Made by a program: the position numbers and the translations under genes. From Halothiobacillus sp. (lineage in GTDB: Bacteria > Pseudomonadota > Gammaproteobacteria > Halothiobacillales > Halothiobacillaceae), in contig JAGUXT010000059.1 of the NCBI GenBank assembly GCA_020061705.1, positions 1-64,000 of the forward strand: 64,000 nucleotides of DNA, given 5' to 3'. Below, piece by piece: positions 1-43,202 of this stretch. Under the pieces are notes generated by a model. That model saw only the letters and a list, made by a program, of their open reading frames with translations. It was not told where the DNA came from and ran no database searches. Position 1 is the first letter of the stretch. Every line of letters starts with the position of its first letter.

Positions 1-32
1 ATAATCTGTTCTTCGCTGAATCGCTTCTTCAT
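1..32 (-). CDS. IS3-family transposase OrfA, N-terminal fragment
   Basis: The visible codons read MKKRFSEEQII, the characteristic N-terminus of IS3-family OrfA proteins (a helix-turn-helix DNA-binding subunit made before the frameshifted OrfAB transposase). A GGAG ribosome-binding site lies a few bases before the ATG. The gene runs off the window edge, so nothing can be said about whether the element is intact. Confidence 0.7.
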   Translation of the reverse strand, partial: MKKRFSEEQI

Positions 33-92
33 GTCCAATCTCCTTCATGGGTGGGATTGGACTCTAAGTTCAGGTGCTACTCAAATTGGGGG
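1..92 (-). mobile_element. End of an IS3-family insertion sequence (truncated by window edge)
   Basis: The first bases, read on the minus strand, encode the start of an OrfA typical of IS3-family transposases. About 60 bp of untranslated end sequence follows, running to a C-rich tip. The inner boundary near 92 is inferred: just beyond it lies GCCTAAC (102-108, minus strand), the R'' box of an integron attC-like site, so the element appears to have landed inside that site. The terminal repeat cannot be confirmed because the other end is outside the window. Confidence 0.55.
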
Positions 93-102
93 GACGTCGG
101 GG

Positions 103-1204: not shown

Positions 1205-3976
1205 TTAGCGCTCGGGTAGAAACTCACCTTCAAACTCAATAATTATGTCGTCAATGCCAGATAAATTTACACGTTCTTTGTCCTGCTTTTGAATTTCAAG
1301 ACACCAAGGTCCCTCAGGAGTAAGTTTTACATACGTCTCAGAACCCCCGAGGCTAAACCCACGCGTGACGCTATCTTCAATCTGATAAAAAATATGAGTA
1401 ATTCGTGGTTCATGACTGAATTCAATAACTTCACCCTCCACCGTCCGCAACAGGGCAGTTCCGAGATGGGTGAGGCGCAATCCAAATGGGCTGGTTGCAA
1501 GTCCTCTATCAGCTATAGCAATCCCGGGTAAAGAGATGCGTACAGTCGTAACCCTTACCATTGACATTTGAGTGAACGGTAAATAGGGAATGCTGAATAC
1601 AGCCTGCCCATTATTCTTAAAATCATTAAGGCATATCAATCCGATTTCATTCTTGAAAGAGAAATGGGCAAGCCTGTCTGAAAACTTGAATGTTTGTACT
1701 TCACGCCCTCTATTCTCGATAGAGTCGACTAGCTTTAAGTACGTTTGTGCATGGATTGTTGCCAAATGGTCGATGCTGTCCCTTGATATTGTTAATGGGT
1801 AGCGCTTGCCCGCCCAGTATTCTAGTGCGCGATGTTCTTGATATAGTAGCTGCATAAGAACGCGCTTATTGAGCATATTTGCACGTGACATAAAGCTCAC
1901 AAACTCTGGAAGATGCTGAACATTTGGTCTGTTAACCTGCTGTCGAAGCCTTCCAATTTCACTTGATGATTTTGATATATCGCTAAGCAACTCCGTTCTA
2001 CTGTTGCTAAGTATATTATATTCGATGAGTTTGCTGTTGCGTGTGGTTACTAATTCTATAAAATTATCAATCTCTGCTAGATAAGCCTTTGCCTCAGGCA
2101 AGTGTCGGAACGGTTCAACCGTTGCCTGAATATCTTTGCGTTGCATTAGCAGTTTCCCTGCGTCATTAGGTAATTCAGGTGGTAATATTCCTTTAGGATT
2201 AAGCATATCCCGTATTTCGGACAAACCTTTCGAAACGCCTTGAATACCATTCCCAATTTCTATGATTTTCTCTATCTTGTATTTTGGCTCCGCAAGGTCA
2301 CCAAAAAAGTCATTAGGGTCATGATTTTTCTTATCAAAATCATTATAAGCTTGCCAAGCTGCCATAGCTGTTGCGGCACCTGTCCCGGCAGTGCCGATGG
2401 CGACAGCAATCGTACCCACTGCAAATGCAACATCATTAAATGCACAACTGCTCTGACGGCTGACGGCGTTCTTGAAATCTTCGGCCGTAGACTTTACGCG
2501 AAGCCAAGATGCTTCATATGCACATGTTAGGAGCTCAATCTCGCGAACAAGGGCATTTTCTAGTGTCCCGATGTTTCGGAGACTATCTTCAAGATATGCT
2601 ATTAATCCCTCTTGCTTGGCAATACCTAATTCAAAATGTACTTTTGCTTCTTTCCAGTCATTTAGGGAGTCGCGGTATTTAATATAGTTTGTTTCTATTA
2701 TTCTTGCATGATCCAATAAATAGGCCAATGCCTGTGAGTAGAACTCATAGCTGACAAGTGGAACAAAATTTCGTTGATTACCCCAATAGTCCAATCCGAG
2801 TGAAAGTCGTCTTATCAGCAGAAATGTTTTAGTTCGTAATGCTTCGAATTCATCAGAATTTACTGATATTTCGTTGGGCAATCCAGCGTCATAAACCATT
2901 TCACGTAGTGAGCGACGAACTGTACGTTTGACGAGTAGCCGACCCAGCCAAATGAGTTGATCTAACGCGTTGCTCTCATCTGAATTGGCATAGAGTGTTT
3001 CAGCTTCCCTTAATGCAAGCTCAAGGTACAAAAGACTAGCAGCGCAGGCTAATTTAGCTTCTATATCCTCACGTATATCATCGCCTTGCCCATTAACAAT
3101 TGTTAAGTGTCCTATGTTTCCAGCTTCGCTTATACTAGGACGGTTAGAAAAACTTGCACCGGGCGGTCCTTCAGAAGCGTTACCCAATTCGCAAAGTTTT
3201 CTGGGGGGGCGTGGGGGGCAAATTAGCATAGGCTTACGATTAAAAAGATTGGGTACGCACGGTTCACGCTCTGAATAGACTATACCCCCTTTGCCACCAT
3301 CTCCCCCTTCACCAGCATTACCATGTTGACCTGGATTGCCAGGTGTACCTGGGTCAACATGTGCGTGAATGAGCTCGGACTTTAATGGAGATAAAACCAC
3401 GAGAGAGATATCGCCACCATCGCCACCTTTGCCTGGGATACCTGCTGAACCAGCTGAACCACCCGGGCCACCGCGGGTGGGTGGGGTGCATCTATCATGG
3501 TCATTACCTTTTGTGCCCTTTATTCCGTTACCACCGCTCTGGGCAGCTCCACCGTTGCCACCTTTAGCGAGAAGTTGAATTGAACCTTCTATAGTCTCAG
3601 CGAATATAGAAATTTTGCCACCATTACTGCCATTGCCCCCATTATCACCTGGTTTACCTGGTTCACCTGGTCCAGAGCCTGAAAGTGCAGGCGCACGATC
3701 GCTGTAATCTGGTGAACCAACTTCACCGCTTACATCCAATACGGCATCTGAATGAGCAATTACTCGCCGAGCAAATATTTCTAATAGTCCACTTGGAAGT
3801 CTTAAGTGTCCATCAACTTCCACGACAGTAGCACGAACGATCAAAGCTTTAGTTTTACCTTTATCTTGTATGACCTGATTCTGTGATATTCGAACATTAA
3901 TACCTGTAATGACCACTCTGTCATCCATTGAGGTGTCAATATGATAACGCTCATCGTCGGGGACTTGAAAGTACAT
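1205..3976 (-). CDS. Large collagen-like (Gly-rich) protein, function unknown
   Basis: This is a 923-residue protein. Residues about 20-95 look like beta-strands. Residues about 95-235 hold Gly-Xaa-Yaa and GGNGG-type repeats broken by short beta segments. A long helical, probably coiled-coil part follows, with one hydrophobic Ala/Gly-rich stretch near 515-545. The C-terminal 150 residues look beta-rich again. No signal peptide is seen, and no enzyme motif. AAGGTGA precedes the ATG at a good distance, and an in-frame stop immediately upstream fixes the start. It follows a lipoprotein gene in the same direction, so the two may work together at the cell surface or in a toxin/adhesin-like assembly, but this is inference. 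The stop codon sits in CGCTAAC, a cassette-like R'' box. Confidence 0.65.
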   Translation of the reverse strand: MYFQVPDDERYHIDTSMDDRVVITGINVRISQNQVIQDKGKTKALIVRATVVEVDGHLRLPSGLLEIFARRVIAHSDAVLDVSGEVGSPDYSDRAPALSGSGPGEPGKPGDNGGNGSNGGKISIFAETIEGSIQLLAKGGNGGAAQSGGNGIKGTKGNDHDRCTPPTRGGPGGSAGSAGIPGKGGDGGDISLVVLSPLKSELIHAHVDPGTPGNPGQHGNAGEGGDGGKGGIVYSEREPCVPNLFNRKPMLICPPRPPRKLCELGNASEGPPGASFSNRPSISEAGNIGHLTIVNGQGDDIREDIEAKLACAASLLYLELALREAETLYANSDESNALDQLIWLGRLLVKRTVRRSLREMVYDAGLPNEISVNSDEFEALRTKTFLLIRRLSLGLDYWGNQRNFVPLVSYEFYSQALAYLLDHARIIETNYIKYRDSLNDWKEAKVHFELGIAKQEGLIAYLEDSLRNIGTLENALVREIELLTCAYEASWLRVKSTAEDFKNAVSRQSSCAFNDVAFAVGTIAVAIGTAGTGAATAMAAWQAYNDFDKKNHDPNDFFGDLAEPKYKIEKIIEIGNGIQGVSKGLSEIRDMLNPKGILPPELPNDAGKLLMQRKDIQATVEPFRHLPEAKAYLAEIDNFIELVTTRNSKLIEYNILSNSRTELLSDISKSSSEIGRLRQQVNRPNVQHLPEFVSFMSRANMLNKRVLMQLLYQEHRALEYWAGKRYPLTISRDSIDHLATIHAQTYLKLVDSIENRGREVQTFKFSDRLAHFSFKNEIGLICLNDFKNNGQAVFSIPYLPFTQMSMVRVTTVRISLPGIAIADRGLATSPFGLRLTHLGTALLRTVEGEVIEFSHEPRITHIFYQIEDSVTRGFSLGGSETYVKLTPEGPWCLEIQKQDKERVNLSGIDDIIIEFEGEFLPER

Positions 3977-7483: not shown

Positions 7484-8452
7484 TCAGGCCGCAAGTTTGA
7501 GCGCTGTATCCAGCGCACGCTGTTTAATCAGCGCACCCTGGCCGAACCATGCTGAATCCATGCGGTATTCAACATTTCTGGCACGCCGTTCATGATCGAC
7601 ATATTCCGTGACGGAATTCAGCAAGCCCCAGGCCGTCCCTTTGGCAGCATCCAATTCCGCACCGCGACCCTTGCCCTCATACAGGCTTTGCACACGTAGC
7701 AAGGCACGCTCATTGGGCAGGTTGTCAGGTAAAGCTGCATTGGGCTGCACATCGCAGAGCACATGCAGGAAAAAGTTGGTTGCTTCATGTGGCTGGATTT
7801 TACGATCCGCCATTTTGCGCAAACGCGCCATAAAGGCATCCCACTCCGATACCGCAATGCCCAGTTGACGCTTGACCGTCACGGCATCAAAGCGTGTGCT
7901 ATGCGGAACCTTGATCGCCTGCGGCGCACCGTTGAGGGCTATGCTCAGGGTGTTGTTACACACCACGCGCACCAAGGTTGGCGTGGCCGTTGTCGCCAAG
8001 GTGCCATCACACGACGTTGCCAGCAAAAGATAGCCATTCACCTGATCGTTGCCCTTCAGATTGGCGCTTTGATTGGTACGTGCCAAAGCCCAGAACTTGC
8101 GTCCACCCTTGAGCACACCGGCAGTTTCCAGCTCATAACCAGAAACCTCGGTCAGATCACGGTAAAACTCCAGCACATCACGCGGTTGCACCACCTGATA
8201 GCGCTGCGACACCACGGACAAGGCATCCTTGGTATCAGAACGAAACAACACCTTGTGCTCGGAAAACTCACGCAAGCGTGAGAGTTGCTGGTTAGCAGCA
8301 TCCAGATACTGCACAGGCGAGGATTCAATCGTCCAATCCATCCCCGCCGCAGCTTGCCAGCGTTCAATGGATTGACCTTGTGGAAGGCGCTGCCCCAAGC
8401 CATGCCAGGGTGCAGCGCCGGTATAAGCCATATTTTCAATAAGATGAGCCAT
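7484..8452 (-). CDS. DUF932 (phage/plasmid-related, LGT_TIGR03299-like) protein
   Basis: The start at MAHLIENMAYTGAAPWHGLG has a good AGGAG ribosome-binding site, giving 322 residues. The N-terminal 'PWHGLG' and the central ALARTNQSANLKG...NGYLLLATSCDG segments are typical of DUF932 proteins carried by phages, plasmids and integrative elements. The biochemical role of the family is unknown. It is transcribed with yqaJ and the metal-binding-like gene, which points to a role in element replication or recombination. Confidence 0.85.
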   Translation of the reverse strand: MAHLIENMAYTGAAPWHGLGQRLPQGQSIERWQAAAGMDWTIESSPVQYLDAANQQLSRLREFSEHKVLFRSDTKDALSVVSQRYQVVQPRDVLEFYRDLTEVSGYELETAGVLKGGRKFWALARTNQSANLKGNDQVNGYLLLATSCDGTLATTATPTLVRVVCNNTLSIALNGAPQAIKVPHSTRFDAVTVKRQLGIAVSEWDAFMARLRKMADRKIQPHEATNFFLHVLCDVQPNAALPDNLPNERALLRVQSLYEGKGRGAELDAAKGTAWGLLNSVTEYVDHERRARNVEYRMDSAWFGQGALIKQRALDTALKLAA

Positions 8453-10819: not shown

Positions 10820-12100
10820 TTAATTAGGTTGTTCATTAAGGCTATTGATGTACAGAATCCTATCAAGATGCTCACCCAATCGCCCCCATGCGTCCATGCG
10901 CTCGGCCTTTAGGTCATAGCGCTGATAAATGCGTTTAATCCTGTTGGCTTCGTCGTGGTTCATGCAACGCTCGATGACCTCAGACAATATGCCGAGCTCT
11001 CCCATAAGAGTTGCGCCAGTCCTGCGCAGGTCATGCGGAGTCCATTTACCGCCGGGTAGGGTCAGGCTGCCTGTAGATTTGCTGCGCCCCTGCATGGCTG
11101 TTTCACGCTGCCTGTCATCCACTTGGCGCGTAATGGTTTTGAGGCAAACGTGCTTGTCCGTGGTGCGCGTTGTCGGATAACACCACGCGCTCCAGCCTGT
11201 CAGTGTGCGCAGTTCTTTAAAATGTCGATGCGCAAACGCACTCATATAGACGGTATGCGTCTTGCCGTTCTTGGTGTCGGGAATCGTCCATGTCCCGGCA
11301 TTGAAGTCGATATGTTCCCAGCGGGCTTGCAAGAGTTCACCAATGCGGACGATGGTTGAAAGTTGAATCCACAAAGCAAGTTCGTTTTGCCGTTCCATCT
11401 TTGCAGCGGGCAGTTGGTCGCGTAAAAGCTTGAGTTCCTCATTACTCAGTACGCGCTCGCGCTCTGTCACTTTGCCGCCTGCATCCTTTTCTTTGGAGAG
11501 TCCAGTCATGGGTGACTTGTCGATCAACTCACGGCGCAAACACCAATTAAAGAATTGGCGCATATCAGCAAAGACGTGGTTGGCCTGAATGCGTGAACCG
11601 CGCATCTTTACACGGTCGAGAATATCTAATACATTAGCCTTGGTAACGTTTCCCAGTTCCTTGTGGCCGACAAAGGGAAGCACATCCTTGGCCAACATTC
11701 TGCGCACTTCAACACCACCATCCTTGCGGCATGTGTCAATTTCTAGCCTTAGCCAGTCTTGGATGACTTGGTGAACGGTTCGAATGCTTTCACGGGCAAG
11801 GCGTTCGGCTTCGGCCTGGCGTTGCAGCTTCTCCTCTTCTTCCTTCGCATGGTCGATTGGACATGTCCCCTCATTAATCAACTTGCGGGCTTCGGCTGCT
11901 TTGGCTCGCGCTTCCTTTAGGCTGACGTGTTCATATTTACCCAGCGCCATGACTTTGCGCTTACCCTTTAACTGGTAACGGAGCACCCATGACCGCACAC
12001 CTGAAGGAAAGATGCGCAGTCGCAATCCTTCACCTATATCCAACAAAATTTCTTTGTCACCTGGTTTGATTGATTCAATTTGTTTGGCTGTAACCGCCAT
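10820..12100 (-). CDS. int: Tyrosine recombinase (phage P4-type integrase)
   Basis: A site-specific recombinase of 426 residues from the start MAVTAKQIESIKPG. It has an N-terminal arm-binding domain (DUF4102-like), a coiled SAM-like core-binding region and a C-terminal catalytic domain with Arg in STIVRIGELLQARW, HDLRRTGATL (His-x-x-Arg), His in MNHDEANRIKR and the nucleophile Tyr in IYQRYD. All catalytic residues are present, so it is probably active. It lies beside a tRNA 3' fragment, the expected attachment target for this family. An upstream in-frame ATG would add seven residues. Confidence 0.92.
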   Translation of the reverse strand: MAVTAKQIESIKPGDKEILLDIGEGLRLRIFPSGVRSWVLRYQLKGKRKVMALGKYEHVSLKEARAKAAEARKLINEGTCPIDHAKEEEEKLQRQAEAERLARESIRTVHQVIQDWLRLEIDTCRKDGGVEVRRMLAKDVLPFVGHKELGNVTKANVLDILDRVKMRGSRIQANHVFADMRQFFNWCLRRELIDKSPMTGLSKEKDAGGKVTERERVLSNEELKLLRDQLPAAKMERQNELALWIQLSTIVRIGELLQARWEHIDFNAGTWTIPDTKNGKTHTVYMSAFAHRHFKELRTLTGWSAWCYPTTRTTDKHVCLKTITRQVDDRQRETAMQGRSKSTGSLTLPGGKWTPHDLRRTGATLMGELGILSEVIERCMNHDEANRIKRIYQRYDLKAERMDAWGRLGEHLDRILYINSLNEQPN

Positions 12101-12269
12101 GCCTCGTCTCCACGTACCCACTCACGTACCCACTTGTACTTGGTTCTTATGATACAGTGCTGGACGATAAAAAACCTAATTTACATAAATATCAATTAGT
12201 TGAGATGTTGCTCTGGACGTATTAAAGCCTTGTTGGAGGATGTAAAACTTAACTGGGGGACTAGTGGTA

Positions 12270-12297
12270 GCAGGTTCAAATCCTGTCGTCCCGACCA
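12270..12297 (+). tRNA. 3' fragment of a tRNA (probably tRNA-Pro), att site of the element
   Basis: A T-arm (GCAGG, loop TTCAAAT, CCTGT), an acceptor 3' strand CGTCCCG, discriminator A and encoded CCA are present, but no D-arm or anticodon arm precedes them. An acceptor beginning CGGGACG is typical of gammaproteobacterial tRNA-Pro, so the fragment is likely the displaced 3' end made by integration. The matching intact tRNA was not found in the window and may lie left of it. Confidence 0.75.
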
Positions 12298-12339: not shown

Positions 12340-12790
12340 CTTTGGGCGAAGGTTTTATGGCTGTATGGGTTGCATCCTGAGTTACACGACCAGTGCAGTT
12401 TTGCTTGGGGTAACCGGGGACTTGGCTGGTTGCGGCTGTAACGGTTGGACAAGCCTTGAAAAATTTCCTTTCTGAACGTGAAACAATTTTGCAAAAAATG
12501 GAAGATACTCTATCTTCAGTTTTGGAAGACAACAGCTATTGGCAGGTAAATTTCAATAATAATCGGTGTCTCGAAAGAGAGGAGCGGTTTTATTGGATAT
12601 AACGGCCATGAAAAGGTAATGTGTTAGCATATTTACGCTTCTTATCCAGCATGTCCGATAATACTTATGCGCCGACATTTGTCCCATAGTTAACGCTAGG
12701 TATCGCAGCACAGTTCTCTTAGATGAGACAATCGAATACTGAATGTAATTAACTGGTTTTTATCACCTATCCAACTTATGGAGAAATCAT
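12340..12790. other. Intergenic with a possible decayed ORF
   Basis: A plus-strand frame ending at 12602 (ATG at 12498, 34 codons; MEDTLSSVLEDNS...) has protein-like composition but no recognisable family, and looks like the tail of a decayed gene. The rest, up to the GGAG ribosome-binding site of the next gene, is low-GC and probably carries the promoter of the peptide/radical-SAM unit. Confidence 0.3.
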
Positions 12791-13066
12791 ATGACAAGCA
12801 AAATTACACAACTAGGGGTTGTGCTCGAAGACAAAGAGTCTGGTCTGCGGTTAATGATTGTTCGCCCAGCGAACGACGTGCTTAAGGCAGAGGATCTCAA
12901 ATACAATAACCGTTCCTTGACAGTTTGCAGCATCCAACCGTCAGGTCAGCCTGAAGATGGAATACGTGTCGGAATGGATCCTGGCTCACGCAGCAGATCC
13001 GCACCTTACCCTTTTTCGGCAGGACAATCTGAAGATGGAATTCGTGCTGAAATGGATGCTGACTGA
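12791..13066 (+). CDS. Putative RiPP precursor peptide with duplicated core
   Basis: A 91-residue peptide with a GGAG site 7 nt before ATG. Residues 1-50 look like a folded leader (MTSKITQLGVVLEDKESG...). The C-terminal part carries two copies of a 26-residue unit, GQPEDGIRVGMD and GQSEDGIRAEMD, the first followed by PGSRSRSAPYPFSA. The DNA repeats in frame with a 78-nt period, and the second copy ends where TGA replaces a TCA serine codon of the first. A radical SAM gene follows 38 bp downstream. Together this fits a ribosomally made, enzymatically modified peptide. No known precursor family was recognised, and the modified residues cannot be predicted. Confidence 0.6.
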   Translation: MTSKITQLGVVLEDKESGLRLMIVRPANDVLKAEDLKYNNRSLTVCSIQPSGQPEDGIRVGMDPGSRSRSAPYPFSAGQSEDGIRAEMDAD

Positions 13067-13104
13067 CGTAGTAGGTCAAGCCACGATTAGTAAGGAGTAA
13101 CAGT

Positions 13105-14085
13105 ATGAATTCCATTTCACTGGTTTCAGGCGCATTATCTCTAACCGGAAAATGTACCATTGCCTGCAAGCATTGTTACTCTAACTCAGGGCCGAAGCTT
13201 GAAGCATATCTGAGCACTGTTCGTCTTATTGAGATTGTGAGTACACTTCGGCAACATGGGGTCAAACAAATTTTCCTTGGGGGTGGAGAGCCATTCCTAC
13301 ACGCAGGCCTTGAAGAATTGGTAGGCCACATGTTCAAGATAGGGGTCTTGCCAAGCATTTCCACAAACGGTCACGTATTATCAAACGAACGGCTTGAATC
13401 GTTATACAACGCCGGTCTAAGGTACAACCTATCAGTAAGCTTGGACGGCCCTTCGGAAGAGGTAAATACCCCCATAAGAGGGGCTCACAGTTTCACAAAA
13501 ACATTATTTGGAATGTACCAGCTTTCGGATTTTGGGAAAATACTATGGGGCGTAAACTATGTGAGCTGCAAAGACAATCTCGGGTATGCTCTTGATACAG
13601 CGAAGCTAGCTGCTCGTCTTGGCGCCAGTTACTTCAATTGCATAAAATTCACACCAAGCGGCAGGGGTGAGCGCTATGCTAATGAAATGTCATTAACCGA
13701 TTTGGAATTTAGTAGCGAAGTTACAAATCTCAGCTCGCAATTCACCCCTTTCGGTGAATATTACCAAGACATATACATCTTTGACATTCGATCTGACGTA
13801 GAATCTTGCGATGGTAAAACAATGGCAAATTGTGCGAGATCATACTTTTCTGATTTTTCCATGGAAAATCCACTTGGGGTTAGCATAAACCATTTCGGAG
13901 ATGTATCTCTGGCACCGCCAAATATACCTCTCGGAAACATTAATACCACAAGTCTTGAAGACATTATTTTACGATTGTCAAGTGACGATGTTCTGTCGAA
14001 TTATGAAAGCTGGGTTACAGGCAAAAGCCTTGGAATTCACCCACCTCGAAATCTCTCAAGAAATATGCCAGAGGTTTTAATTTAA
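13105..14085 (+). CDS. Radical SAM peptide-modifying enzyme (putative)
   Basis: A 326-residue protein with an AGGAG site upstream. The [4Fe-4S]/SAM motif is CTIACKHCYS (CxxxCxxC, near residue 17), followed by GGGEPFL (SAM-binding) and the TNGHVLS and LSVSLDGP strands of the radical SAM barrel. The C-terminal part (about 235-326) has the layout of a SPASM/twitch domain (GVSINHFGDVSLAP..IPLGNI), but the cysteine expected after 'GDV' is missing and only a few isolated cysteines remain. It is therefore a degenerate auxiliary domain. It lies directly after the repeat peptide, its likely substrate. Low GC and an attC-like element over its stop codon suggest acquisition as a unit. Confidence 0.85.
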   Translation: MNSISLVSGALSLTGKCTIACKHCYSNSGPKLEAYLSTVRLIEIVSTLRQHGVKQIFLGGGEPFLHAGLEELVGHMFKIGVLPSISTNGHVLSNERLESLYNAGLRYNLSVSLDGPSEEVNTPIRGAHSFTKTLFGMYQLSDFGKILWGVNYVSCKDNLGYALDTAKLAARLGASYFNCIKFTPSGRGERYANEMSLTDLEFSSEVTNLSSQFTPFGEYYQDIYIFDIRSDVESCDGKTMANCARSYFSDFSMENPLGVSINHFGDVSLAPPNIPLGNINTTSLEDIILRLSSDDVLSNYESWVTGKSLGIHPPRNLSRNMPEVLI

Positions 14086-14145
14086 CCGGTGATTAACGAG
14101 GACGCCCATGCTTCTTATGGTCGCCGTTTAACTCGGGTGTTAGCC
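14080..14145 (+). repeat. attC-like palindromic site at the end of the radical SAM gene
   Basis: ATTTAAC (fits RYYYAAC and contains the TAA stop codon) begins a 66-bp imperfect palindrome ending in GTTAGCC (one mismatch to GTTRRRY). The inner arms around CCAT/ATGG pair partly. Its placement at a gene end with an embedded stop codon is typical of cassettes, but the match is weaker than at 990-1059 and 42474-42545. Confidence 0.4.
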
Positions 14146-14448
14146 CACGTAGTCCGCGTAGCCCACAATCGCTACTCTAGGGCGTGTTGCAACCCGCCGA
14201 ATGGATGCTGCCTAACGGTTATCGGAGGCAGTAGTTAAGGTTATGACGCTCTTTTGCCCTAAACGCACCCAATAAGCGCATGACCCGACGCATGGCGGGT
14301 TTCAAAAGCCGCGTATTGCCATTCTCCGGCGCTTCCTTGCAAAGCCTTCGCCTTCCGGCATGGCGCGGCGCGCAATACATCGCTTGAAATCAAGTCCACA
14401 GCGCCCTAAAGTTGTGCTGTAAACAGTACAAATCGGGTGGGGCTCGAC
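14146..14448. other. Intergenic, no gene seen
   Basis: About 300 bp. One small hairpin (CTGCC/GGCAG with GCCTAAC inside) near 14208-14233 may be a degenerate attC remnant. The last part presumably carries the YefM-YoeB promoter. Confidence 0.35.
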
Positions 14449-14706
14449 ATGCGTGTGGTGAATTTCTCCGAGGCGCGCAATAGCCTCAAAAAAGTGATCG
14501 ATCAGGTCATCGACGATGCCGATTTTACGGTGATTGCGCGCCGTGATGCGCCGGATGCCGTGGTGATGTCGCTGGAAACCTTTAATGGCTTGATGGAAAC
14601 CGTTCATCTTTTGCGTTCGCCTGCGAATGCCGCGCATTTGGCGCGCTCGATGGAGCAGTTTCATCAAGGGCAGCTTGCGCATCGGGACTTGGTTGATGCC
14701 GAGTGA
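14449..14706 (+). CDS. yefM: YefM/Phd-family antitoxin
   Basis: 85 residues from MRVVNFSEARN, the typical start of YefM (an ATG four codons earlier is also possible). The N-terminal half is the Phd/YefM DNA-binding fold (VNFSEARNSLKKVIDQV...VIARRDAPDAVVMS). The acidic/hydrophobic tail would wrap the toxin. It binds and neutralises YoeB and represses the operon. Its end overlaps the toxin start by 11 nt, so the two are translationally coupled. Confidence 0.92.
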   Translation: MRVVNFSEARNSLKKVIDQVIDDADFTVIARRDAPDAVVMSLETFNGLMETVHLLRSPANAAHLARSMEQFHQGQLAHRDLVDAE

Positions 14707-14977
14707 GCCGAAGCTTCTCACCTTGACTTGGACGCTGGCCGCTTGGGCTGATTATGAGTATTGGCAAGGCCAGGACAGGAAAACCCTCAAGCGTATCAAC
14801 ACCCTGATTAAAGATTGCCTGCGTGAGCCCTTTGGTGGCCTGGGCAAGCCTGAGTCGCTCAGGGAAAACCTTTCGGGTTTGTGGTCGCGGCGCATTGATG
14901 ACACGCATCGTCTGGTTTACTGCGTCGAAGGTCGCTCGCTGGTCATCATCGCCTGTCGTTACCATTACCAGCCCTAG
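14696..14977 (+). CDS. yoeB: YoeB-family mRNA interferase toxin
   Basis: 93 residues from MPSEPKLLTLTW. RelE/YoeB fold features are present: the WADYEYWQGQDRKTLKRIN helix, KPESLRENLSGLWSRRI, the HRLVY strand and the C-terminal CRYHY, which carries the catalytic His-Tyr. All expected catalytic residues appear present, so it is probably functional. It cleaves mRNA on the ribosome when the antitoxin is degraded. Confidence 0.93.
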   Translation: MPSEPKLLTLTWTLAAWADYEYWQGQDRKTLKRINTLIKDCLREPFGGLGKPESLRENLSGLWSRRIDDTHRLVYCVEGRSLVIIACRYHYQP

Positions 14978-16925: not shown

Positions 16926-17222
16926 TCAGGCGTGCAGCACTCGTAGCGCCACATCGGGCTCGGTCAAAACAATCTTGAGCAATGCGGCAGCCGGACCGGT
17001 CGGGTTGCGGCGGTGTTGCTCCCAATTTTGCAGAGTCTTGGTGCTGACTCGCATTAACTGCGCAAACTCACTTTGGGACAAGCCAAGTTGCTCACGTAAG
17101 ACTTTGACGTCTGGCGTGTTCACCGTAAATCTGCGAGAAGCAGGCATTTCACAGTGGGCAATCGCTTTGGCTTCTTTCAAGCTTTGCAGAAGGTCATCGA
17201 ACAGGGGTTGTTCCATTGTCAT
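16926..17222 (-). CDS. HigA/NadS-type helix-turn-helix antitoxin
   Basis: 98 residues. An N-terminal toxin-contacting segment precedes an XRE-family HTH (VKVLREQLGLSQSEFAQLM, then VSTKTLQNWEQHRRNPTGPA). It would bind the adjacent RelE-type toxin and the operon promoter. The order is toxin first, antitoxin second, with an ATGA overlap, as in higBA-type modules. It is immediately followed by the duplicated lpxB tail. Confidence 0.88.
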   Translation of the reverse strand: MTMEQPLFDDLLQSLKEAKAIAHCEMPASRRFTVNTPDVKVLREQLGLSQSEFAQLMRVSTKTLQNWEQHRRNPTGPAAALLKIVLTEPDVALRVLHA

Positions 17223-17530
17223 AGCTCCTTTACAAGTTCGCGCAATAAGGCGGTTTCCCGGTCTGTTAACGTATCTTTCTTTGACTTCGGGTAGATGAGC
17301 AGCATGTAAACTTGGTCATCATGACGCAGCCAGTAATAGATCACGCGTACGCCACCACTCTTGCCACGTCCGGGCAGTGCGTGGCGCAATTTTCGGATTC
17401 CTCCGCCCCCTTGGATGATTTCGCCCCGTTCGGGGTTCTCGACCAAGGCATGCTGAAGCACTGTGTACTCGTCATCCGTCATTAGATCGACCAGTAAGCG
17501 GGTGAAGGTTGGGGTCTCAATGAATTCCAT
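17219..17530 (-). CDS. RelE/HigB-type toxin
   Basis: 103 residues with the RelE-superfamily core: HALVENPERGEIIQGGGGIRK, then RHALPGRGKSGGVRVIYYW and MLLIYPKSKKDTLTDRE. Basic residues in the GRGKSGG/RVIYYW strands are those expected for ribosome-dependent mRNA cleavage. It is probably intact. It is the first gene of the module and is translated into the antitoxin by a 4-nt overlap. Confidence 0.88.
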   Translation of the reverse strand: MEFIETPTFTRLLVDLMTDDEYTVLQHALVENPERGEIIQGGGGIRKLRHALPGRGKSGGVRVIYYWLRHDDQVYMLLIYPKSKKDTLTDRETALLRELVKEL

Positions 17531-42473: not shown

Positions 42474-42545
42474 GGCTAACGTTCGACATGGGCGGCATGA
42501 CCCGGCTTGCCGGGGCATGTCTGGTCGTCGATGGAGGGGTTAGAC
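42474..42545 (-). repeat. attC-like integron site between HEPN-like and DUF3224 genes
   Basis: On the minus strand GTCTAAC (perfect RYYYAAC, containing the TAA stop of the HEPN-like gene) is followed 65 bp later by GTTAGCC (one mismatch to GTTRRRY). The interior is an imperfect palindrome (TCGAC...GTCGA, GGCATG/CATG(T/C)C, CCGGC/GCCGG). Size, symmetry and position at the gene end fit an attC site. Confidence 0.65.
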
Positions 42546-43130
42546 ATTTGCTCGCCCCTTCGCGCGCTCCTTGCGCCACCGCTCTAGAAGTTCAGTGTTC
42601 CCTGATGCCACCTCAATGAGCATTTGCAGCGAGAGCAACGCACCGGGAACGATGCCCGCTTCATCTATCTCCTGCCCATCGAAGCCTGGATTGGTCTGGA
42701 TTTCTACGTTCACTACCCACCATACGCCAATCTTGCGCAACAGCGTCACTAGGTCAGTGAACTGAGATTCGTGAGCCGACTCGACTTGCCCAGTCACCAC
42801 GGCGAAGAGCTGGTGAGCCAGTTGATTACGGGTGTTCTTCAGCCTTTCAAAAGTGATCAAGTCTGCGTCGTCAATGGCATCGTTCTCGCGTAGCCATTGA
42901 AGAGACGCATAGAGCGGACTCTTGTTCTTGGATAAGACCTGGGATTGGTACTCAGCCCCGACAGTGAGCCCATGCTCATCAAACCCGTCCGTGTAAAAGC
43001 CGCGAACGTCGTCCATGATGGAGTCCTTGAGGATTTCGAACGTGGTGATAAACATCGTCGCCAGGAAAAGCGACGGCCTGACTACATCAGGATCAAGGAA
43101 TCGCTCCCACTGGTCAGTAGCGCTCGTCAT
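42540..43130 (-). CDS. HEPN-like hypothetical protein
   Basis: 196 residues from MTSATDQWERFLD. The start was chosen because it lies 5 bp after the attC-like R' box; a GTG inside the attC-like site is the alternative. It is helical throughout. The motif RNQLAH fits the HEPN RNase signature Rx4-6H, and the surrounding LQWLRENDAIDDADLITFERLKNTRNQLAH resembles small HEPN proteins found on plasmids. A toxin or RNA-cleaving role is possible but unproven. No antitoxin gene is adjacent. Confidence 0.55.
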   Translation of the reverse strand: MTSATDQWERFLDPDVVRPSLFLATMFITTFEILKDSIMDDVRGFYTDGFDEHGLTVGAEYQSQVLSKNKSPLYASLQWLRENDAIDDADLITFERLKNTRNQLAHQLFAVVTGQVESAHESQFTDLVTLLRKIGVWWVVNVEIQTNPGFDGQEIDEAGIVPGALLSLQMLIEVASGNTELLERWRKERAKGRANV

Positions 43131-43135
43131 CAGAT

Positions 43136-43202
43136 GCCTAGCGTTTGAATTCACTGGCCTGCGCGTCTTTTTGCGCAGGTCCGGTGGAATGATGGGTTGG
43201 GC
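43136..43202 (-). repeat. attC-like integron site between HNH-like and HEPN-like genes
   Basis: On the minus strand GCCCAAC (perfect RYYYAAC) to GCTAGGC (one mismatch to GTTRRRY), 67 bp, enclosing a strong hairpin with CCTGCGC/GCGCAGG inner arms and CACTGG/CCGGTG outer arms. The HEPN-like start codon follows at once, as in integron cassettes. Confidence 0.65.

Follow-up and report, generated by a model that had tools for sequence, protein, structure and literature searches.

Background

Among the described systems closest to the locus analysed here, TvgA/TvgB of Halomonas anticariensis, which yields a poly-cyclopropylglycine RiPP, combines a repeat precursor with one radical SAM enzyme (PMC9062424). 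SkfB possesses an N-terminal RRE and an auxiliary cluster, Aux I, ligated by Cys351, Cys385 and Cys387, with one ligand cysteine placed after a hairpin and two after the next helix; SuiB has a complete, two-cluster SPASM domain, and SuiA binds to it without using the RRE (PMC6231123). In this study we examined a peptide gene with an internal repeat and the radical SAM gene that follows it in a window of Halothiobacillus sp. DNA, i.e. the whole 64,000-nucleotide stretch that was analysed. A minimal radical SAM-RiPP pair, acquired horizontally, is in our opinion the best explanation for this unit and a probable one. From the arrangement of the two genes, the repeat structure and the predicted fold we infer that the peptide may be the substrate of the enzyme.

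The features on which the analysis is based are the following (window coordinates):

12253-12297, plus strand: right-hand att copy of the adjoining integrase island, the 3' end of tRNA-Pro(ggg), matching the intact tRNA-Pro(ggg) of the same genome (contig C8) and of three same-genus genomes
about 12355-14234, plus strand: foreign unit with the peptide and radical SAM genes, in a slot with the tRNA-Pro flank on one side and yefM-yoeB on the other
12776-12790, plus strand: Shine-Dalgarno region of the peptide gene, TATGGAGAAATCAT ahead of the ATG, read directly from the DNA
12791-13066, plus strand: ORF of 91 aa for a putative precursor peptide with a putative leader (residues about 1-51) and a repeat region (residues 52-91)
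12939-12999, plus strand: repeat copy 1, SGQPEDGIRVGMDPGSRSR
13017-13077, plus strand: repeat copy 2, AGQSEDGIRAEMDAD followed by the stop; the likeness goes on beyond the TGA as RSR
13105-14085, plus strand: radical SAM protein, 326 aa (PF04055), with CxxxCxxC at residues 17-24, a Twitch-like C-terminus and no RRE
14126-14145, plus strand: attC-like right half, GTTTAACTCGGGTGTTAGCC, a motif match, with TTAACTCGGGTGTTAGCC at 14128-14145

Results

Location and boundaries of the unit

A tyrosine integrase (10823-12121, minus strand) adjoins the tRNA-Pro(ggg) 3' copy, which, at 12253-12297, marks the left limit of the possible ancestral flank. Since this genome carries the complete tRNA-Pro(ggg) on a different contig (C8, 187292-187368), the integrase island, with its end at 12297, fills the left-hand side of the window. 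The peptide-radical SAM unit is located just beyond this end, with the integrase on its left and yefM-yoeB and a gamma-glutamyltranspeptidase (GGT) gene on its right. In the same-genus genome G023, homology to the window extends up to 12354, covering the tRNA and its flank, and resumes from 14235; the intervening DNA of G023 is 853 bp long, is unrelated and harbours on the opposite strand an ORF of 187 aa, likewise unrelated. The GGT of G023 is 95% identical to that of the window. The slot beside tRNA-Pro is variable, holding another gene in the closest relative. The GC3 values of the peptide and radical SAM genes (0.41 and 0.40, compared with 0.78 for the nearby host GGT gene) show that the unit is foreign by composition, and horizontal acquisition is the best explanation of its presence.

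The first-pass annotation had delimited the unit at 12791-14145 and had reported the lack of an adjoining transporter, protease or immunity gene. Inspection of the flanking genes bears out the latter statement; both genes are present in the interval, but coding ends at 14085 and the last 60 bp are non-coding.

Several other features of these regions were recorded. Two toxin-antitoxin pairs, YefM-YoeB and a RelE-like one with an HTH antitoxin, lie on either side of the GGT gene (14437-14977 and 16926-17530). The 187-aa protein in the equivalent slot of G023 (L144, 6480-7043, minus strand) matched nothing in Pfam, NCBIfam or PADLOC, and its candidate assignment as a SLATT-like protein was consequently unsupported. 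The start region of yoeB in the same genome (L144, about 7690-7740) shows an in-frame short-repeat expansion (LTLTLTLT) relative to the window. An identical 96-bp sequence is found in opposite orientation at window positions 4-99, the contig start, and at L145 8098-8193, the end of contig C8, and is probably a repeated mobile element at a contig break. Nothing relevant was obtained from an Rfam search.

The peptide gene and its repeat

The 91-residue ORF previously described was confirmed at 12791-13066, and the radical SAM gene does start 38 bp after it on the same strand (13066 to 13105). Good Shine-Dalgarno regions precede both genes (TATGGAGAAATCAT for the peptide, TAAGGAGTAACAGT for the enzyme). 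A short precursor-like ORF is therefore adjacent to, and co-directional with, a radical SAM gene, as in RiPP pathways. In an AlphaFold model built from one sequence (pLDDT 62), residues about 1-51 are predicted to be beta-rich, with pLDDT of 76-82 by blocks of ten over residues 11-50, and residues 52-91, comprising the repeat region, are predicted as mostly disordered and are mostly of low confidence. Comparison of this model with PDB folds gave no convincing match (best Z 5.8). No match was found in NCBIfam, Pfam, PHROGs or PADLOC, and the best hit to a PDB sequence (E 0.07) was not convincing, in agreement with the earlier view that the peptide belongs to no recognised precursor family. The peptide has no Trp and its putative core has no cysteine; to our knowledge, an acidic-Gly-Ile-Arg core of this kind falls outside the familiar sactionine, ranthipeptide or cyclophane core motifs.

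Self-comparison of the DNA identified two copies of 61 nt, 77% identical and spaced by 78 nt, which at the protein level form two 26-aa units with the core GQxEDGIRxxMD. The best off-diagonal score was 33, the highest score among 30 dinucleotide-shuffled versions of the unit was 16, and the DNA repeat is far above chance. The 78-nt in-frame repeat encoding two 26-residue copies had been claimed before, as had the shortening of the second by a TCA-to-TGA change, and both claims hold: copy 1 reads TCA where copy 2 reads TGA. The copies differ at 14 sites across 19 codons. In the coding frame, seven of these differences are silent (pS 0.54) and seven replacing (pN 0.16), and the other two frames show no silent excess (pS about 0.19, pN 0.24); third-position enrichment alone gives P 0.12 in this small sample of 14 differences. 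Both copies have the same EDGIR, MD and Q residues. This pattern supports the existence of peptide-level constraint on the repeat. Because the likeness persists past the TGA of copy 2, where three codons differ from copy 1 by silent changes only (CGC/CGT, AGC/AGT and AGA/AGG), translation of copy 2 probably once extended beyond this point, the TCA-to-TGA change being recent.

The radical SAM enzyme

Membership of the enzyme in the radical SAM superfamily is given by the Pfam domain PF04055 (67 bits against a gathering score of 29.5, E 2.9e-18) together with C17, C21 and C24, the intact CxxxCxxC noticed in the first-pass annotation; the only other cysteines are at residues 155, 179, 235 and 243. 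Alignment with 20 relatives shows that the radical SAM core is kept and that the near-invariant C-terminal cysteines are absent. The structural model (pLDDT 74, pTM 0.77) consists of a barrel followed by a beta-hairpin and helix at residues 256-292, equivalent, in the prediction, to the Twitch half of SPASM; the SPASM/Twitch auxiliary-cluster cysteines that would be placed after the hairpin and helix are absent, no Cys occurring past residue 243. The earlier description as a decayed SPASM domain can be made more precise: the predicted region is Twitch-like, a beta-hairpin and helix in which all of the expected auxiliary-cluster cysteines are lacking. Neither sequence nor model contains an N-terminal winged-helix RRE, as the first radical SAM cysteine is already at residue 17 and leaves no space for a domain ahead of it.

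Many RiPP maturase models of NCBIfam matched the protein, every one far below its cut-off. The best score was obtained with MftC (TIGR03962, 84.9 against a 265-bit cut-off), followed by NirJ2 and AhbD, and scores for viperin (NF038283, 47 against 180 bits) and MoaA (62 against 284) likewise fell below their cut-offs. The closest PDB sequence was SkfB. The top fold matches of the model were SkfB (Z 23.8 over 275 residues, rmsd 3.4) and SuiB (Z 23.1 over 284 residues, rmsd 3.5), treated as tied because their Z scores lie within 1 of each other, and the next were viperin (Z 22.0 over 244 residues, rmsd 3.0), MoaA (21.5), PqqE (21.0) and BlsE (20.6). This ranking of matches to the predicted fold favours, without proving, a peptide substrate.

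Distribution of the two genes

No homologues of the peptide were found in 27 genomes of the order or 369 of the class, nor any match in plasmids or phages. Orthologues of the radical SAM gene were absent from the genomes sampled for the order (27), the class (369), the phylum (398) and another class (48), where generic radical SAM matches reached at most 67 bits, compared with 738 for the protein against itself, at about 23-34% identity. The plasmids, phages, IMG/VR and the GTDB-derived contigs, the latter scanned with a single-sequence query that reaches close relatives only, contained at most generic radical SAM relatives. Since the genome samples are partial and overlapping (order, class, phylum and another class), these results indicate rarity of the genes rather than absence. 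Two weak peptide hits (L003 and L004) and the IMG/VR hits to the pattern EDGIRxxMD were discarded as chance or unrelated proteins.

Integron attC sites in the window and in relatives

A covariance model trained on 17 attC sites from relatives detected three likely attC sites in the window, at 43136-43202, 990-1059 and 42474-42545 (45.1, 29.5 and 24.2 bits). Those of 45.1 and 24.2 bits lie on the minus strand on either side of an ORF of unknown function (42540-43154), and the region 42474-43202 looks like an integron cassette without a nearby integrase. The 990-1059 site, also on the minus strand, is situated between unknown genes at 1205-3976 and 103-900, in a low-GC part of the integrase island. 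Integron integrases scored over the cut-off in 9 of the 27 order genomes; none did so over the family cut-off in this genome. Relatives in the same family (L102, L103 and L105) possess large chromosomal integrons that contain dozens of attC sites, and in L102 many sites lie about 270 bp apart with nearly identical sequences, a pattern resembling duplication of a small cassette.

Discussion

A probable minimal radical SAM-RiPP pair

If the two genes form a RiPP pair, the precursor encoded by the first would begin with a leader (about 1-51) that is folded and rich in beta structure, and would have two GQxEDGIRxxMD core copies at its C-terminus. The enzyme would dock the leader directly, without an RRE, and its single 4Fe-4S cluster would cleave SAM reductively to generate the 5'-deoxyadenosyl radical, which may then act on the conserved EDGIR/MD motif of each copy, modifying residues within it or close by. 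As the expected auxiliary-cluster cysteines are missing, a redox-neutral reaction, e.g. epimerisation, seems somewhat more likely than an oxidative crosslink. For export or processing the unit would rely on genes located elsewhere; otherwise the product would be kept inside the cell.

Several lines of evidence favour such a pair: the shared strand and 38-bp spacing, with a Shine-Dalgarno site for each gene; a repeat far above chance with a silent excess in the coding frame alone; the radical SAM domain and its likeness, below cut-offs, to MftC and many RiPP maturases; the rank of SkfB by PDB sequence and of SkfB and SuiB by fold; the putative leader predicted as folded and the putative core as mostly disordered; the low GC3 and the variable slot beside a tRNA gene; and the precedents of the TvgA/TvgB repeat precursor (PMC9062424) and the RRE-bypassing SuiA/SuiB (PMC6231123). 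Against it, no homologous pair appeared in any search, so that the pairing is without observed conservation; RRE, transporter, protease and second tailoring enzyme are all lacking; non-RiPP folds (viperin, MoaA, BlsE) match nearly as well; and the third-position bias is weak and the peptide model comes from one sequence. The proposal of a new RiPP made in the first-pass annotation is thus upheld in part, through the repeat constraint, a fold nearest to RiPP maturases and the tandem genes. That the pair also represents a new minimal class, in which a radical SAM enzyme without auxiliary clusters or RRE modifies a cysteine-free, repeated EDGIR/MD core behind a folded beta-rich leader, is possible but on balance doubtful.

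Alternative explanations

The truncated second repeat indicates that the unit may be decaying, and a RiPP-type unit gained horizontally whose product is now lost or of little import would also account for the absence of maturation and export partners beside it and for its isolation, without relatives in the genome samples. The truncation is probably recent, given the silent-only differences beyond the stop, yet both genes keep uninterrupted frames of 91 and 326 codons, the Shine-Dalgarno sites and the CxxxCxxC are intact, and one full repeat is still present; we consider decay unlikely. A role of the enzyme on a small molecule or nucleotide, as in viperin, MoaA or BlsE, with the small protein as an accessory or unrelated neighbour, is consistent with the Z scores of those folds (20.6-22.0), near that of SkfB, with a PADLOC match to pVip (E 1.7e-15) and with the absence of auxiliary-cluster cysteines, shared with viperin and unlike most RiPP maturases. 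This role is nevertheless distinctly unlikely: the viperin and MoaA family scores are far too low, SkfB comes top by both sequence and fold, and the adjacent repeat peptide is left unexplained.

The peptide and radical SAM genes might constitute an integron gene cassette, recombined at an attC site just past the radical SAM stop codon, a scenario compatible with a RiPP function. The attC-like right half downstream of that stop, the likely attC sites elsewhere in the window and the relatives with integron integrases and long attC arrays speak in its favour. However, the covariance model scores 6.4 bits at 14126-14145, compared with 24-45 bits at the other window sites, and does not support a complete attC at the 3' end of the unit; the single strand folds no better than shuffles, and the boundary with G023 is at 14235, about 90 bp further on. 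A cassette origin is accordingly largely refuted and highly improbable.

Comparison with known systems

If the peptide is modified, the radical SAM-RiPP pair would be a two-gene system whose enzyme has a single iron-sulfur cluster and lacks an RRE, and would provide a simple test case for the need of auxiliary clusters and recognition domains. Mycofactocin MftC is the best NCBIfam hit of the enzyme, yet at a score well under its cut-off, and the adjacent peptide fits no NCBIfam family. Viperin and prokaryotic viperins resemble the enzyme in having a radical SAM barrel without auxiliary cluster, but differ in family score (47 against 180 bits), and no nucleotide-related context is found at the locus. 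SuiB is tied with SkfB as fold match, but its full SPASM domain has no counterpart here. The chemistry of SuiB in streptide is a Lys-Trp crosslink, likewise without counterpart in a peptide that has no Trp. With SkfB, the sporulation killing factor maturase and a Twitch-type sactisynthase, the enzyme has in common the radical SAM barrel and the Twitch-like C-terminus, whereas the RRE and Aux I cysteines are missing and the putative core offers no cysteine for sactionine formation. The TvgA/TvgB system differs in its TVGG repeats, its SPASM-type enzyme and the oxidase and transporter genes of its cluster; its likeness to the pair described here, with no relation shown between the sequences, is one of arrangement, a repeat-containing precursor beside a radical SAM maturase.
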